Source: Paenibacillus azoreducens
Lineage (GTDB): Bacteria > Bacillota > Bacilli > Paenibacillales > Paenibacillaceae
Assembly (NCBI RefSeq): GCF_021654775.1
Contig: NZ_AP025343.1
Coordinates: forward strand, 2,137,501 to 2,201,500
Reading direction: 5' to 3'
Length of the DNA: 64,000 nt
Shown piece after piece: positions 16,755 through 24,119 of the stretch. The notes under the pieces are model-generated. The model saw only the letters and a program-made list of their open reading frames with translations. It was not told the origin of the DNA and searched no databases. Position 1 is the first letter of the stretch. Every line of letters begins with the position of its first letter. The translations under genes and the position numbers were made by a program.

Positions 16755-18212
16755 TTAGCTGCAGGCGCAATTCAGCACCGGCTTGCGCGCGGCCGTCGTT
16801 TCGTCCAGACGGGTAACCGGCGTATCGTAAGGTGCATTCAGAAGCAGCTCCGGCTGCTCCTCGGCTTCCTTGGCGATTTGGATCATCGTATCGATAAACG
16901 CATCCAGCGTATCTTTGCTTTCGGTTTCCGTCGGTTCGATCATGATACATTCTTCCACATTAAGCGGGAAGTAGATGGTTGGCGGATGGTAGCCGAAATC
17001 AAGCAGGCGTTTGGCTACATCCAGAGTACGCACACCATATTGCTTCAGCGGCGTGCCAGACATCACGAACTCGTGTTTGCAGATGCCTGGATACGGAATA
17101 TCAAAATAAGGTTCAAGACGTTTCATCATGTAGTTGGCGTTCAGCACGGCGCATTCCGATACGCGGCGCAAGCCTTCAGGACCATAGCTACGCATGTACG
17201 TATACGCCCGGACCAGAATGCCGAAATTGCCGTAATAAGCTTTTACGCGGCCGATCGATTGCTCGTTAGCGCCTTCCAGCGTAAAGAGGCCTTCTTCTGT
17301 TTTCGTAACGTACGGTCGCGGCAGGAACGGCGTGAGCAGACTTTTTACGCCGACCGGGCCTGCGCCGGGACCGCCGCCGCCATGCGGCGTGCTCATCGTT
17401 TTGTGCAGGTTCAAATGCACAACGTCAAAGCCCATGTCGCCAGGGCGGGTGATGCCCATGATGGCGTTGGAATTAGCGCCGTCGTAGTACAGAAGCCCGC
17501 CGGCTTCGTGAACGATTGCGGCTATTTCCTGGATCTGCTCTTCGAACAGGCCGAGCGTGTTCGGATTGGTCAGCATCAGGGCAGCCGTGTCGCTGCCGAC
17601 TGCTGCGCGCAGCGCATCCAAGTCGACCAGTCCTTTGTCCGTGGACGGGATCGTGATGGTTTGCAGCCCGGCAACGGAAGCGCTGGCCGGATTCGTACCA
17701 TGCGACGAGTCCGGCACGATCACCTTGTCGCGCTGCTCTCCGCGGCTTTCATGGTATGCGCGGATCATCATGAGGCCGGTCCATTCGCCATGTGCGCCGG
17801 CGGCCGGCTGCAGCGTTACGGCATCCATGCCGGTAAGCCCCGCCAAATCCTGCTGCAGCTGATACAACAGCTGGAGTGCGCCTTGGATGCTTTCTTCGGG
17901 CTGATAAGGATGGAGTTTGGCGAATCCCGGGTAGCGCGCTACATCTTCATTGACTTTCGGATTGTATTTCATCGTGCAGGAGCCAAGCGGATAAAATCCG
18001 TTGTCCACGCCGAAATTGCGGCGGGAAAGCTCGGTATAGTGGCGGATAACATCAACTTCGAATACTTCAGGCAAAGCCGCCGGCTCGCTGCGCAGCATGG
18101 AGGCCGGAATGACGGATTCCGCTTCCAGCTCCGGCACGTCGAGTTCCGGCAGGGAGTATGCGATACGTCCGGGATGGCTCAGTTCAAATATCAATGCTTT
18201 TTCCTGTATCAT
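16755..18212 (-). CDS. gcvPB: Glycine dehydrogenase (decarboxylating) subunit 2
   Basis: PLP-carrying half of the split P-protein of the glycine cleavage system; decarboxylates glycine and passes the aminomethyl group to lipoyl-GcvH. 485 residues. The PLP lysine is in [20 protein letters not shown]; also [17 protein letters not shown] and [15 protein letters not shown] [11 protein letters not shown]. Its start overlaps the gcvPA stop by 4 bases (ATGA), so the subunits are translationally coupled. Last gene of gcvT-gcvPA-gcvPB, ending in a shared terminator. The C-terminus ends in cysteines (NCACS), an unremarkable family variation as far as I can tell. Confidence 0.96.
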
Positions 18213-19561
18213 AAACAGCCCTCCAGCAGTGATGCGAATTGGTCAATCTGTTCTTTGGTTCTGCGTTCGGTCACGGCGATCAGCATATGTCCTTCAAGCT
18301 CCGGATACGAGCGGCCAAGGTCATAACCTCCAAGAAAACCTTCCTTGAGCAGCTTCTTGTTGACGTCGGAAACGGATGCGCCGCCAGGAAGCTTGATTAC
18401 AAATTCATTAAAATATGGAGCCGTATACGCCAGCGTCACGCCAGGCACTTTGGTCAGCCGATCTGCGGCGTAATGGCTTTTTTGCAAGTTAAGTTTGCCG
18501 ACATCGATCAGTCCCTGTTTGCCCATCACCGACAAATATACGGAGGCGCAAAGCGCAAGCAGCGCCTGGTTCGAACAGATATTCGAGGTCGCTTTTTCAC
18601 GGCGGATATGCTGTTCACGGGCCTGCAGCGTCAGCACAAAACCGCGTTTGCCGTTCCGGTCGACCGTCTGGCCGACAATCCGTCCCGGCATTCTGCGCAT
18701 ATGATCCTTGGATACGGCGAAAAATCCGCAAGTCGGACCGCCTAACGAAGCTGCAATGCCAAGCGGTTGGGCGTCTCCCACCACGATATCGGCGCCAAGC
18801 TTGCCGGGTGCTTCCAGAAGTCCCAGCGACAATGGATTGGTGCTTACAACCATGAGGCCTTTGTGGGCATGGATCAGGTTGCCGATCGCAGCGAGATCTT
18901 CAACCGAACCGAAGAAGTTCGGGTTTTGCACCAGAACGGCGGCGGTATCGCCTGTGACAACCTTGGCCAGTTCTTCCATGTCCGTTACGCCATTTTTGGT
19001 GCCAACTTCCACGATGTCGAGTCCGAGACCATGGGCATAGGTGTGAATCACCTGTCTGGATTCCGGATGAACGGCAGAGGAGATCACGAGCTTGCTGCGC
19101 TTGGTAGCCGCACTTGCCAGTGAACCGGCTTCAGCAAGGGCTGTCGCGCCGTCATACATGCTGGCATTGGCAACAGCCATGCCCGTAAGTTCGCAAATAT
19201 AGGATTGGAACTCGAATATGGCCTGCAGCTCGCCTTGGCTTACTTCGGCTTGATAAGGCGTATAGGCGGTATAAAATTCCGATCTCGATACCACATGGTT
19301 GATCACGGACGGAATATGATGGTCATAAAGTCCGGCGCCAAGGAAGCTTGGGTATTGGTCGGTATTGGCGTTTTTGGCGGCAAGGGCGGACAAGTGGGTA
19401 GTAAGGGCATATTCGTCCAGACCTTTGGATACGGGCAGTTCGCCTTTAAACCGGATTTCGTCCGGGATATCCTTGAACAAATCTTCGATGGAGTTCAGTC
19501 CGACGGTTTTCAGCATTTCCTGCTGATCCTGCTCGGTCATGGGCAAATAACGATGTTTCAC
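18209..19561 (-). CDS. gcvPA: Glycine dehydrogenase (decarboxylating) subunit 1
   Basis: Non-PLP half of the P-protein heterodimer, 450 residues, with family blocks [54 protein letters not shown], and [20 protein letters not shown]. It starts with GTG that overlaps the gcvT stop (GTGA). Operon position 2 of gcvT-gcvPA-gcvPB, under the glycine riboswitch upstream of gcvT. Confidence 0.96.
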
Positions 19562-20679
19562 TTGGAGTCAGCTCCTTTTCGGGCTCTTTTGTAAAAAGGC
19601 GTGCTTACAACTTCGGCTTTCAGACGTTTGCCGCGTATTTCCACTTCAACCTGCGTGCCGGTCGCGGCATGATTGCTGTCAATCAAAGCAAGGCCCAGGT
19701 TGCGTTTGAGGGTTGGCGATTGGGTTCCGGTAGTGATTTCACCGATCTGCGTGTCGCCGGCATAAACAGGATAATGGGAACGCGGGATGCCGCGGTCAAT
19801 CATTTCCACGCCGACCAGTTTCCGCGGAACGCCGCTGCTTTTTTGCTGCTGTAGCGCTTGTTTGCCGATAAAATCATCCTCTTGGTTCAGCTTCACGAAA
19901 AAGCCGATGCCGCCTTCCAGCGGGGAGATTTCTTTGGACAGTTCCTGGCCATAAAGCGGCAGCTTCGCTTCAAACCGGAGCGTATCGCGGGCGCCGAGTC
20001 CTGCGGGCAGCAGTCCGTGCGCTTCTCCATGCTCGAACAATCCTCTCCATACAGTGGGAGCATCCGCCGCTTTAAGGTAAATTTCAAATCCGTCTTCACC
20101 GGTATAACCTGTGCGCGAGATAAGGACGGATGCGCCGAACAAGTTTACATTTTGCAGGAAGTGAAACGAACCGAGCGCTGACAGATCCGCATCTACGAGG
20201 GGATTCAGAATTTCCTCCGCTTTAGGTCCTTGGATCGCGAGAAGAGCCGTTTCGTCGGATTGATTGGTCATTTGAACTCCATTTTTCAGATGCTGCTGCA
20301 GCCATTCCCAGTCTTTGTCGATGTTGGATGCGTTGACGACAAGCATGTAAGACTGCTCTTCCAGCTTGTAAATCAGCAAATCATCAACGACGCCTCCGTC
20401 CGGATAACACAGGGCACTGTACTGCGCCTGGCCGGGTTCGAGTTTAGTTACATCATTGACGGTCATGTACTGAATAAAGCTTTCGGCCTCCGGACCGCTC
20501 ACCATAAACTCTCCCATATGGGACACATCGAATAAACCGGCGGCTTCACGAACGGCCTCATGCTCTTTATGAATGCCGCTAAACTGGACCGGCAGCTCCC
20601 AACCGCCAAAATCGATGCACCGCACGCCAGGGATTTCGGCATACAGAGGGTAAAGCGGGGTACGTTTCAGCTCGGACAC
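19558..20679 (-). CDS. gcvT: Aminomethyltransferase, glycine cleavage T protein
   Basis: Moves the methylene group from aminomethyl-GcvH to tetrahydrofolate and releases ammonia. 373 residues. GcvT blocks: [57 protein letters not shown]. The GTG at 20679 is chosen because AAGGAG lies a few bases upstream; longer in-frame extensions enter the riboswitch terminator. First gene of the gcv operon. Its leader carries a tandem glycine riboswitch and terminator. Confidence 0.95.
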
Positions 20680-20741
20680 GTTTCCATCTCCTTCTCTATT
20701 CACATTTTTAAAAAGAGGATTTTGCAAAATCCCGAAAACAC

Positions 20742-20806
20742 AAAAAGGACAGGCAGAAGAATAAGCATACCGCATTTTGCGGCATACCGGTTCTTATGCT
20801 CTGTCC
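20742..20806 (-). terminator. Riboswitch-controlled terminator upstream of gcvT
   Basis: Minus strand: GGACAG (complement of 20801-20806), the last conserved bases of aptamer II, pairs with CTGTCC followed by TTTTT (20742-20753). Between them AGCATAAGAA pairs partly with TTATTCTTCT, and an inner GTATGCCGC/GCGGTATGC stem closes the structure. Because GGACAG cannot pair in both helices, glycine binding should open expression (ON switch), as known for gcvT riboswitches. Confidence 0.8.
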
Positions 20807-21345
20807 TTGGTACCTGAGAGTTACCTTGCCAAATACGGCCGCTGTAAGACTAAAGGATAATAAAGCTTCAGTGCCGGCAGGCAAGTTTCCCCTTGGGTGA
20901 TTCTTCGGTCAAGAATTCTCTCCAGAGATGCGTCCGATAATGGTCCTTTTGCCTGAGAGATTCACCCTGTTGTAAGGGTTTACTCCTTCGGCGTCACTAT
21001 ATAAAAGAGGTTGTTCAAAAAGTCCGCTTTTGATAAGAAAACCAATCGAGGTCAATACAAGGATGAGCGACCGCGATGCAAAGGTAGGTTTTCTTGCGAT
21101 ATAGAATTTCATCAGCTGTGCTGATAACTCATGAATTCTATATCTAACACGAAGTGAATCAGGAAGTGAACTCGGCATCGAATCTTGAATTCAGCCGGGC
21201 CTTCTGGTGCTCACGTACCCACTACGTACGCTCCGCTCCTTTCGTCCCTATCTTCATCCAACCTTCTCGGTGCTGAAAACCGGCCTTTTTTGAACACGCA
21301 TTAAATCAGTAATCTCTCCCATTACCTTCATCCGCTATTGAATTG
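20801..21345 (-). promoter_or_regulatory. Tandem glycine riboswitch of gcvT, interrupted in aptamer I
   Basis: Minus strand, downstream half (20801-21000): CGCCGAAGGAGTAAAC, AATCTCTCAGGCAAAAGGAC, the linker GACGCATCTCTGGAGAG, then aptamer II with CACCCAAGGGGAAAC and AACTCTCAGGTACCAAGGAC. The 5' strand of aptamer I is 300 bases further upstream: GGTAATGGGAGAGATTACT (complement of 21308-21326). P1 forms only across the gap: GGTAATGG (21319-21326) pairs with CCATTATC (20936-20943), 8 pairs with one G-U. The 285-bp element at 21012-21296 lies between. Also TTACT (21308-21312) can pair with AGTGA (20994-20998), closing the arm that now holds the insert. The riboswitch therefore looks intact but enlarged. 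Confidence 0.87.
21012..21296. mobile_element. MITE-like element inserted in the glycine riboswitch
   Basis: 285 bp with imperfect terminal inverted repeats: TGTTCAAAAAGTCCGCTTTT at the left end and TGTTCAAAAAAGGCCGGTTTT-like sequence on the opposite strand at the right end. A central palindrome, ATATAGAATT...AATTCTATAT around CATCAGC/GCTGATA, lies near 21100-21144. No open frame that looks like a transposase. No clear target-site duplication was seen. Probably moved in trans by a full-length relative elsewhere in the genome. Confidence 0.7.
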
Positions 21346-21356
21346 TCTTACTACCA

Positions 21357-21385
21357 TTAATACTCAAAGGCGGCGGGAATGTCAA
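21357..21385 (-). promoter_or_regulatory. Promoter of the gcv operon
   Basis: Minus strand TTGACA (21380-21385), 17-base spacer, TATTAA (21357-21362). It lies upstream of the isolated 5' strand of aptamer I, so transcription must cross the inserted element. This supports the split-riboswitch reading. Confidence 0.78.
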
Positions 21386-21689: not shown

Positions 21690-21890
21690 GCGGATGAAGG
21701 CGAACGGGAGAGACCGTCCCCGGCAAGGAGGGCGGCACCGAAGGAGCAAGCTGCATGTACGCACATACAGGCGGCTAATCTCTCAGGTACAAGGAACCGT
21801 CGCCGGACGCGGCTCTGGAGAGAGCGTCAGCCACCCAAGGGGAACGCGGAAACGGTGATTTCCGTTTAAACTCTCAGGTACAAAGGACAG
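21690..21890 (+). promoter_or_regulatory. Tandem glycine riboswitch of sdaAB-sdaAA-gcvH
   Basis: Two aptamers in tandem. First: ACGGGAGAGACC, CACCGAAGGAGCAAGC, AATCTCTCAGGTACAAGGA, closed by a GGCGAACGG/CCGTCGCC P1 helix with a bulge. Then the linker CTCTGGAGAGAGCG and the second: CACCCAAGGGGAACGC, AACTCTCAGGTACAAAGGAC. It is uninterrupted, unlike the copy facing gcvT. A terminator that reuses GGACAG follows. Confidence 0.92.
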
Positions 21891-21927
21891 AGAAAAAGGT
21901 GCTGCATGCCTTTTTTGCTGTCTTTTT
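21886..21927 (+). terminator. Riboswitch-controlled terminator upstream of sdaAB
   Basis: GACAG (21886-21890, end of aptamer II) plus AAAAAGG pairs with CCTTTTTT and CTGTC (21918-21922), followed by TTTTT. Competition for GACAG with the aptamer predicts glycine-induced expression. Confidence 0.8.
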
Positions 21928-22049
21928 CTTTTGAAAACTATGCATTGTATGCGTTTTTCAGCAGAGCTGATGATGTCCGCGGGACATAAACCATTTTGAA
22001 AACTGTTCAAATTCCTGATACGAATACTTGCACAGGAGCGTGGAAGTCC

Positions 22050-22724
22050 TTGAGATTCAAAAATGTATTTTCTATCATCGGTCCGTCCATGGTGGGCCCC
22101 TCCAGTTCCCATACCGCTGGCGCCGTACGAATTGGGAGAGTTGCGCGCAAGCTGCTGGGTTGCCAGCCGGAGAAAGCGCAGATGACCTTGTTCGGATCTT
22201 TTGCCGAAACCTATTGGGGGCATGGGACGGATTTGGCTTTAACGGCCGGGCTTCTTAATTTTGACACAGACGATGAACGGATTCCGGAAGCCGATCTTGA
22301 AGCGGAGAAAGCCGGGATGGTCACGGAATGGGTGCAAGGAAAAGGAAACGGTCCCCATCCAAACTCCGTGAAAATATCGCTTTGGGGCGGAGACCGCAAG
22401 GCCGAGATCGTGGCGGCTTCGATCGGCGGAGGTACGATAGCGGTTTACTCGCTGAACGGTTTTGACGTGCAGATTACAGGGGAGTATCCGACGATTGCCG
22501 TCACCCATTCCGACCGTCAGGGCGTGCTTGCCAGTTTGACATCGCTGCTCAGCCGCGAAGGGATCAACATCGGTTATATGGACGTGGACCGCAAAGGACG
22601 AAGCGAAGCGGCCATGACGGTGTTTGAATTGGATTCTGCTCCTGAGGGGAGCCTGATCGAAGAGATGTTGAAACTGCCGCATGTTTTGGAAGTGACGTTG
22701 ATTGATTTGACCCAAAGGAGCTAA
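22050..22724 (+). CDS. sdaAB: L-serine dehydratase, iron-sulfur-dependent, beta subunit
   Basis: With SdaAA it deaminates L-serine to pyruvate and ammonia. 224 residues, starting (L)RFKNVFSIIGPSMVGPSSSH, the standard SdaAB opening, at a TTG codon with AGGAG 12 bases upstream; no in-frame ATG is nearby. The C-terminal half is an ACT domain (about residues 145-224: ITGEYPTIAVTHSDRQGVLA), which usually senses serine. The glycine riboswitch in the leader links serine deamination to glycine. Confidence 0.93.
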   Translation: MRFKNVFSIIGPSMVGPSSSHTAGAVRIGRVARKLLGCQPEKAQMTLFGSFAETYWGHGTDLALTAGLLNFDTDDERIPEADLEAEKAGMVTEWVQGKGNGPHPNSVKISLWGGDRKAEIVAASIGGGTIAVYSLNGFDVQITGEYPTIAVTHSDRQGVLASLTSLLSREGINIGYMDVDRKGRSEAAMTVFELDSAPEGSLIEEMLKLPHVLEVTLIDLTQRS

Positions 22725-22731
22725 TGGACTT

Positions 22732-23664
22732 ATGAGATTCGAAACGCTGGATCAGCTGGCAGAAATCTGTCTAAAAGAAAATAAAACGATTGCAGAAGTA
22801 ATGCTGGCGGATCAAGCCAAGGAAACGGGCATTTCTGCGGATGAGGTATTCCGGCAGATGGCGGAATATTATCAGGTCATGAAGGAAGCCGTCCAAAAAG
22901 GACTGACAGGCAATACCAAATCCCGCAGCGGGCTGACGGGGGGCGACGCCAAAAAAGTGGCGGATTACATGCGGCAAGGCGAATCTTCGCTTGGCGGTCC
23001 GTCCGCGACGGCGATGGCATATGCGCTGGCCGTATCTGAAGTGAACGCCTCCATGGGCAGAATCATTGCCACGCCGACCGCCGGCTCCTGCGGGATTATC
23101 CCCGGCGTGTTCGTCAGCGCGCAGGAGCGGTTCGGCTGGGATGACGACAAGCTGGTTCACGGCTTGTTTACCGCCGGCGCGATCGGCTTCGTTATCGCCA
23201 ACAACGCTTCGATTTCCGGCGCGGAGGGCGGCTGCCAAGCCGAAGTCGGATCCGCGATCGGCATGGCGGCCGGGGCGATGGTCGAGCTGCGGGGAGGTTC
23301 GGCGCAACAGGCTGTACATGCCGTAGGCCTTGCTTTGAAGAACTGCCTGGGCCTCATCTGCGATCCCGTTGCCGGGCTGGTTGAAATCCCCTGCATCGTG
23401 CGGAACGGTCTGGGGGCCGTCACCGCGCTGGCAGCAGCCGATATGGCCCTTGCCGGCGTCGGCAGCGTGATTCCTGCCGATGAAGTTATCGGCGTCATGC
23501 TTGAGGTGGGCAGCGCCATGCCGACCAAACACCGCGAAACCGGTAAGGGCGGTCTGGCCGCAACACCTACCGGACGCAAGCTGACCAAAGAACTGGTCGA
23601 GCAGCGCCGCCGCAAAGCCAAGGAAGCCAAAGAAGCCAAACAACCACCGTCAGACACCAAATAA
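22732..23664 (+). CDS. sdaAA: L-serine dehydratase, iron-sulfur-dependent, alpha subunit
   Basis: Catalytic [4Fe-4S] subunit. 310 residues with the serine dehydratase blocks SSLGGPSATAMAYALAVSEV, TAGSCGIIPGV, EGGCQAEVGSA, and LKNCLGLICDPVAGLVEIPC; conserved cysteines in these bind the cluster. Seven bases after sdaAB, so one operon. The lysine/alanine-rich C-terminal tail (KAKEAKEAKQ) is disordered-looking. gcvH follows 62 bases later. Confidence 0.95.
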   Translation: MRFETLDQLAEICLKENKTIAEVMLADQAKETGISADEVFRQMAEYYQVMKEAVQKGLTGNTKSRSGLTGGDAKKVADYMRQGESSLGGPSATAMAYALAVSEVNASMGRIIATPTAGSCGIIPGVFVSAQERFGWDDDKLVHGLFTAGAIGFVIANNASISGAEGGCQAEVGSAIGMAAGAMVELRGGSAQQAVHAVGLALKNCLGLICDPVAGLVEIPCIVRNGLGAVTALAAADMALAGVGSVIPADEVIGVMLEVGSAMPTKHRETGKGGLAATPTGRKLTKELVEQRRRKAKEAKEAKQPPSDTK

Positions 23665-23726
23665 TGGCTCATCAAAGTAACATGTTACGAAGATCATTAC
23701 ACTAATCGAAGGAGAGTTGTGAACAA

Positions 23727-24119
23727 ATGAGCAATGTGAAAGAGAACCGTTGGTACAGCAAGGATCATGAATGGGTAGAAAAGGTAAGCGGAAACGTCGT
23801 GCGCATCGGAATCAGCGATTTTGCGCAGCATCAGCTCGGAGATATCGTGTTTGTGGAGCTGCCGGAAGAAGGCGCGGAAGTTGCAGCCGAGGAGAGCATC
23901 GGGACTATCGAGTCCGTAAAAACCGTTTCGGATCTGTTCTGTCCTGTCGGCGGTCAAGTCACGAAAATCAATTCGCAGCTCAGCGATGAGCCCGAACTCG
24001 TAAACAGCGAGCCGTACGACGGCGGATGGATGTTGGAGATCGAGGTGGAAGGCGATCTGGAAGAGCAGCTGTCGGCACTTCTGGACGCGGAGCAATACGA
24101 GAAATTTATTGAAGAATAA
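23727..24119 (+). CDS. gcvH: Glycine cleavage system H protein
   Basis: Lipoyl carrier that shuttles the aminomethyl intermediate between P, T and L proteins. 130 residues. The lipoylated lysine is in GTIESVKTVSDL; starts with the usual NRWYSKDHEWVEK. GAAGGAGAG lies before the ATG. It sits in the sda operon rather than with gcvT-gcvP, 62 bases after sdaAA, with a GTAACATGTTAC palindrome (23677-23688) in the gap and a terminator after it. Placement behind a second glycine riboswitch makes all gcv parts glycine-responsive. Confidence 0.95.
   Translation: MSNVKENRWYSKDHEWVEKVSGNVVRIGISDFAQHQLGDIVFVELPEEGAEVAAEESIGTIESVKTVSDLFCPVGGQVTKINSQLSDEPELVNSEPYDGGWMLEIEVEGDLEEQLSALLDAEQYEKFIEE

Follow-up and report, generated by a model that had tools for sequence, protein, structure and literature searches.

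A gcvT glycine riboswitch of Paenibacillus azoreducens with a MITE inserted in the P2 loop of its first aptamer

Repeats within structured RNAs have been described before; cyanobacterial RNase P RNA with short repeats is a similar case. The closest regulatory system is the tandem gcvT glycine riboswitch (RF00504 / RF03166) of Bacillus subtilis. There, full gcvT expression requires that aptamer I bind glycine but does not require binding by aptamer II; a mutation in the binding site of aptamer I leaves about a tenth of maximal expression, an effect that the aptamer II mutation lacks, and regulation is lost altogether when the P0 kink-turn is mutated (PMC5666159). The locus described here shares with that system the gene context, the strands of the P0 kink-turn, the two aptamers, the conserved core, and a terminator-type expression platform, but a 295-bp mobile element occupies the P2 apical loop of aptamer I, whereas 63 other glycine aptamers have 17–51 nt between the conserved blocks. 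A small mobile repeat co-transcribed in a riboswitch leader is also found before trp in Streptococcus pneumoniae, where a BOX element lies between two T-boxes, which the authors consider to be still functional (PMC3049150); in the glycine case, by contrast, the element lies within one aptamer, between the strands of its helices. The intervening sequence in helix 45 of Coxiella 23S rRNA is likewise a selfish insert in a structured-RNA helix, but it resides in rRNA and is excised by RNase III (PMC4990558), whereas the glycine case concerns a small regulatory RNA. The element itself resembles the bacterial MITEs covered by a review (PMC10969869) in its terminal repeats, target duplication, high copy number, and lack of a gene; the passage of that review on riboswitches only imagines MITEs forming them and does not mention insertion within an aptamer. 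A term search of the main text of a study on glycine aptamer conservation did not find the word "insertion" (PMC6944388). The initial annotation, which knew of no natural example of a transposon inside a riboswitch aptamer, agrees with our literature search, which found none in open-access papers, most subscription papers lying beyond its scope.

The window is a 64,000-nucleotide stretch of the P. azoreducens genome. On its minus strand, the tandem glycine riboswitch precedes gcvT-gcvPA-gcvPB, and aptamer I is split in the apical loop of P2 by the element; the promoter lies beyond the element, as do the 5' strands of P0, P1, and P2. Read 5' to 3' on this strand, TTGACA-17-TATTAA (21385–21357), GCGGAT, GGTAATGG, GAGAGA, TTACT, and G-ATTTA lead to the 295-bp element, which is followed by TTTTA-TAT, AGTGA (P2), the unbroken remainder of aptamer I, aptamer II, and the terminator. 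The helix names follow the usual scheme and the Rfam structure line. The features are as follows.

21380–21385, minus strand: -35 box TTGACA of the presumed gcvT promoter (sequence; aligned in 8 of 13 relatives)
21357–21362, minus strand: -10 box TATTAA, 17 nt from the -35 box (aligned in the same eight relatives)
21330–21335, minus strand: P0 / kink-turn leader, 5' strand GCGGAT (identical in 14 of 14 aligned aptamers)
21319–21326, minus strand: P1 5' strand of aptamer I, GGTAATGG (93.3% of P1 cells paired in 13 distinct rows)
21308–21312, minus strand: P2 5' strand of aptamer I, TTACT (100% of P2 cells paired in 13 distinct rows)
21302–21306, both strands: target-site duplication copy, TAAAT on the plus strand (empty site of relative G019: TTTTA, minus strand)
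21007–21301, both strands: 295-bp MITE in the apical loop of P2 (family copies, ends, flanks)
21286–21301, minus strand: terminal repeat ATGCG-TGTTCAAAAAA; mostly GTGCG-TGTTCAAAAAG in other copies (sequence)
21007–21022, plus strand: terminal repeat GAGGT-TGTTCAAAAAG (sequence, compared with other copies)
21002–21006, both strands: target-site duplication copy, TAAAA on the plus strand (sequence)
20994–20998, minus strand: P2 3' strand AGTGA (sequence, row pairing)
20936–20992, minus strand: P3/P3a core GCCGAAGGAG...CTCTCAGGCAAAAGGA and P1 3' strand CCATTATC (20936–20943) (none of 73 invariant columns changed)
20800–20929, minus strand: aptamer II, uninterrupted (RF00504, 36.4 bits, locus L001; alignment with relatives)
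20743–20808, minus strand: expression platform, terminator AAGGACAG...CTGTCCTTTTT (alignment; part called by the terminator scan)
19558–20775, minus strand: gcvT (mechanical ORF; NCBIfam match)
18209–19561, minus strand: gcvPA (NCBIfam match)
16755–18212, minus strand: gcvPB (NCBIfam match)

The NCBIfam matches of the three genes span nearly their full length, and gcvT probably starts further downstream than the mechanical ORF, since homology begins near residue 35. The 5' strand of P0 pairs with 20930–20934 across the element. The terminator is kept with small changes in all 13 relatives; by analogy with B. subtilis gcvT, we infer that it would compete with P1 of aptamer II. The promoter boxes, from which the transcription start would be expected to follow, are aligned in G041, G045, G046, G048, G049, G064, G094, and G019 and are not aligned in G054, G005, G089, G061, and G010; the promoter scan did not call them because its rule requires a T at the end of the -10 box. 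The pieces named in the initial annotation (GGTAATGG and CCATTATC of P1, TTACT and AGTGA of P2, and the TGTTCAAAAA ends of the insert at 21012 and 21296) were found where it had placed them. It had given the insert as 285 bp, 21012–21296; these TGTTCAAAAA ends are correct, but the mobile unit is larger, 21007–21301, plus the duplication.

Other glycine riboswitches were also noted. A second tandem one, unbroken (21690–21894), heads sdaAB-sdaAA-gcvH (21690–24119, plus strand), divergent from gcvT, and gcvH is therefore behind a different glycine switch from gcvT-gcvPA-gcvPB. A third is located elsewhere in the same genome (L153, 711–822, minus strand, within G000:C1 6961316–6961530). In the relatives G005, G089, G054, and G064 (loci L079, L080, L076, and L078), the spacing between the two divergent glycine riboswitches is about 1.2 to 3.2 kb instead of a few hundred bases.

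Empty sites were sought with a 26-base query motif taken from the side of the element away from gcvT, and the motif was present in 14 of 100 genus genomes, including the genome under study. In all 13 relatives the aptamer is contiguous and resumes with GCCGAAGG after 11–17 nt; P. azoreducens is the only one of the 14 in which it is split. The loop of relative G019 reads TTTTA at the insertion point. We also compared 64 distinct glycine aptamers of the gcvT and sdaAB types, taken from the fetched loci carrying both motifs: the spacing from GGGAGAGA to (A/G)CCGAAGG was 17–51 nt in 63 of them and 320 nt in the interrupted one. The alignment of the relatives' gcvT leaders and these spacings bear out the earlier placement of the insert in a variable arm of aptamer I.

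The two flanks read together as one conserved aptamer. When joined, they scored 99.2 bits as a single match to an HMM of the 13 relatives, which themselves scored 83.9–104.5 bits when left out one at a time; with the element present, the match fell into two pieces of 65.6 and 23.4 bits. The joined aptamer keeps all 73 columns at which the 13 relatives (12 distinct sequences) are invariant, and the core GGGAGAGA / GCCGAAGGAG / CTCTCAGGCAAAAGGA is identical in all 14 rows (13 distinct). Pairing of P0, P1, P2, P3, and P3a, again with the flanks joined, holds in 97.4% of the cells of the 13 distinct rows, against 28.5–41.5% for slid versions. Covariation is modest (three pairs changed on both sides, a number reached by 144 of 500 shuffles) because the sequences are closely related. 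The split arrangement was searched for with exact motifs in two length ranges, a design that other inserts would escape. The pattern GGGAGAGAYYRC-N{298-328}-GCCGAAGGAGYAA matched no genome except the one under study (1 of 100 genus and 1 of 392 order genomes, the same genome both times); neither it nor its N{185-215} version had a match in a wider genome-contig collection, from which this genome itself may be absent.

A full aptamer I lying contiguously on one side of the element would, according to the initial annotation, speak against its reading, and to the letter Rfam does give such a match: RF03166 matches the gcvT side alone at 39.3 bits (20865–21027, minus strand), and RF00504 gives a full-length match of 40.3 bits (cut-off 32) ending inside the element at the same place. 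However, the 5' strand in the RF03166 alignment is GCGGACTTTT, with GCGGA, and belongs to the element itself, whereas the true conserved strand is found across the element together with the promoter. We therefore reject a complete aptamer I on the gcvT side and take both matches as spurious. The RF03166 cut-off of 110 is reached by none of 40 relatives; the best RF00504 aptamers of the 13 chosen relatives scored 63.8–75.7 bits in 11 and were absent in two. The interrupted aptamer I was not found as one proper Rfam match. Automatic annotation would set a slightly odd aptamer here and miss the true 5' half, and covariance models that borrow transposon bases could likewise put other split RNAs in the wrong place.

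The mobile nature of the insert, which the initial annotation had supposed in calling it MITE-like, is supported by its terminal repeats, the 5-bp duplications, the copy number, and the empty site in relatives. The terminal inverted repeats are 16 bp long and imperfect (GAGGT/ATGCG + TGTTCAAAAA). The sequence TGTTCAAAAAGTCCGC, allowing up to two mismatches, occurs 142 times in the genome (places taken for the first 100), against four occurrences of a reversed-pattern control. The element matches at least 51 stretches of its own genome, with 40 of 227 candidates scored and some stretches being pieces of one copy; full or partial relatives are present in 40 of 100 genus genomes, own included, with at most seven candidates scored per genome. 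The ends of the copies are mostly GAGGT- or GTGCG-TGTTCAAAAAG, and A/T-rich duplications of 5 bp lie on either side. We compared the flanks of the 54 nearest terminal-repeat pairs at 69 own-genome loci: the duplication was perfect in 30, had one mismatch in 18, and two or more in 6; when left and right flanks of different copies were compared as a control, 4.4% were perfect and 22.7% had one mismatch. The riboswitch copy matches in four of five bases (TAAAA/TAAAT), which is not significant taken alone.

The only mechanical ORF of at least 60 aa overlapping the element is 20909–21178 (minus strand), which extends into the aptamer. No transposase bracketed by the element's repeats within 1.5 kb was found among the 19 places matching PF01609, which include all four matching PF13751. 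The transposase at L163 is accompanied by one repeat end, on one side only, and the four further copies of this transposase lack it. At L126 (1849–2489) lies a 641-bp element that shares the MITE's terminal repeats, has a perfect TAAAA duplication, and consists of tandem repeats of roughly 105 bp. At L143 (2391–2503, minus strand, and 2534–2712), a MITE of the same family with a perfect TATTC duplication precedes an epsC RNA, leaving about 30 bp before its 5' end; the RNA is unsplit. No other family copy interrupts a structured RNA matched by Rfam at the gathering threshold, under which a split RNA could escape, at the 69 own-genome loci with copies or terminal repeats (L001 included) and nine loci of other genomes; the matches there, beyond the glycine riboswitch of L001, are an azaaromatic riboswitch, a SAM riboswitch, an epsC RNA, an L21 leader, and group II intron domains, each unbroken over its matched part. 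The promoter scan called no promoter inside the element reading into gcvT. On the gcvT strand the terminator scan made one weak call inside it (21127–21109), in a region where chance alone would give 1.4 terminator-like sites. Compared with 27 aligned near-full-length copies, the riboswitch copy has 3 private substitutions (range 1–8) and 18 differences from the consensus (range 11–34). The insertion may thus be too young for selection to show, although its age is uncertain, and the intactness of the aptamer is weak evidence, since there may have been time for only a few mutations.

Compatibility of the insert with the aptamer was computed. In the minimum-energy fold of the whole leader, native P0, P1, P2, and P3 are present and the element is closed above P2. 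The stability of the whole leader does not exceed that of its shuffles (z -0.55; 27 of 100 are as good), whereas that of the element alone does (z -2.46). The initial annotation held that the insert can fold as one extended hairpin; the ends do pair, but the interior folds as several domains. The mean pair probabilities of P1/P2/P3 were 0.74/0.61/0.78 with the element, 0.89/0.89/0.95 in the empty leader, and 0.25/0.03/0.45 for 100 dinucleotide-shuffled inserts, of which 12%, 2%, and 20%, respectively, reached the actual values. Imposing the native aptamer fold costs 0.60 kcal/mol with the element and 0.37 kcal/mol without it, compared with 0.85–16.5 kcal/mol for 60 mononucleotide shuffles. Together with the row pairing and the joined-flank score, these predicted costs agree with the earlier proposal that P1 and P2 can re-form across the gap.

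The native-fold cost depended on the ends of the insert. When 21 end bases were kept on each side and the interior was shuffled, the median cost was 1.28 kcal/mol, with 21 of 40 inserts at or below 2; when the ends were shuffled and the interior kept, it was 4.48 kcal/mol (3 of 40). Shuffling the whole insert gave 6.52 kcal/mol (1 of 40), and random pieces of the window gave 5.93 kcal/mol (4 of 40). The fact that kept ends preserve the low cost and shuffled ends raise it suggests that the terminal repeats do most of the insulating. Insulation is not guaranteed, since other copies and the reversed element can cost much in the model, and these controls speak against it as a general rule. With orientation set by sequence, 22 other copies inserted in the same orientation cost 0.55–3.92 kcal/mol, one being below the riboswitch copy and six costing 2–4; reversed, they cost 0.32–10.8 kcal/mol (five below 0.60 and 12 above 2). 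The riboswitch copy itself, when reversed, cost 10.1 kcal/mol, with P1/P2/P3 probabilities of about 0/0/0.26. When the insertion point was moved along the aptamer from P1 to P1, 24 of 90 points cost 2 kcal/mol or less, including the last seven of the P2 loop; the first two interior points of that loop cost 2.8 and 5.9, and the actual point 0.44, the scan using an exact duplication. Conserved junction positions also seem tolerated in the scan, which indicates the limits of a secondary-structure measure; the costs describe equilibrium secondary structure and are silent on tertiary contacts and kinetics.

Folding of the growing transcript was also predicted. The P1 strand pairs with the incomplete element (0.85 at 310 nt and 0.59 at 335 nt) and is freed (0.00) at 343 nt, once the second terminal repeat has been transcribed; GGGAGAGATTACTG, next to the P1 strand, is still paired with the element at 0.29 at 363 nt. 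At 21309–21325 (minus strand), an early local hairpin can arise between GTAAT, in the P1 strand, and ATTAC, which overlaps the P2 strand. In several steps the P1 strand had a pairing probability of 0.74 with bases outside the element, and this hairpin may hold the 5' strand aside during transcription of the element.

We consider it fairly probable that the leader has tolerated the MITE and still works as a glycine ON switch. A high-copy MITE would have entered the P2 apical loop of aptamer I, which is A/T-rich, and duplicated about 5 bp. Transcripts from the old promoter would then carry the 5' strands of P0, P1, and P2, followed by about 300 nt of element and the completion of the aptamer. 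The terminal repeats would pair in the RNA and seal the insert as a separate domain atop P2, and the native P0/P1/P2/P3 pairings would thereby stay available. Glycine would be expected to cause antitermination at the platform that follows aptamer II, and aptamer I would be finished about 300 nt later. Our judgment that the switch probably works follows from the small predicted penalty and the fact that no conserved position is lost. A serious rival is that the insertion cripples aptamer I and leaves aptamer II alone with a weaker response or none, the locus being tolerated since gcvT is dispensable or partly expressed. The reported results from B. subtilis argue for it (PMC5666159), as there an aptamer I mutation leaves about one-tenth of maximal expression and a P0 mutation abolishes regulation; so does the need for both P0 and P1 to re-form over 300 nt, and the few private substitutions fit a possibly young insertion. 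However, the native fold costs nearly the same as in the empty leader, and none of the 73 invariant columns is changed, although this is weak evidence for the reason given above. We regard a damaged aptamer I as unlikely, yet well worth taking seriously.

The element could instead have been kept for retuning, through delayed completion of aptamer I, a changed glycine threshold, or cutting of the hairpin by RNase III. The additional 300 nt or so between the P1 strands and the finding that just one of the 22 other copies in the same orientation is cheaper at the site are in line with such a role; the split is known from one genome only, however, and with five of the 22 copies below 0.60 in the opposite orientation the compatibility is too ordinary to call adaptation. 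We consider retuning, which the initial annotation had also raised, improbable. A misjoin of a repeat into the leader during assembly is more improbable still: the many copies of the element are a usual cause of such errors, but the assembly is a single 7.3 Mb contig, the element ends are exact with four of five duplicated bases, both flanks are colinear with relatives, and the riboswitch copy has private substitutions of its own. Returning to the tolerated insertion, a more general proposition is that mobile elements with terminal inverted repeats are "RNA-transparent": their paired ends would seal them off in a hairpin loop and allow them to reside in a working aptamer. Whether this holds, with the present leader as such a case, we consider evenly balanced.

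The leader offers a natural experiment on the insert tolerance of a riboswitch aptamer and on the role of co-transcriptional timing within aptamer I, together with a testable rule that terminal repeats insulate inserts in RNA loops. If our reading is true, glycine sensing would persist here in a natural riboswitch whose binding domain has a transposon lodged between its two strands, and such insertions would provide a route for riboswitches to acquire new arms.
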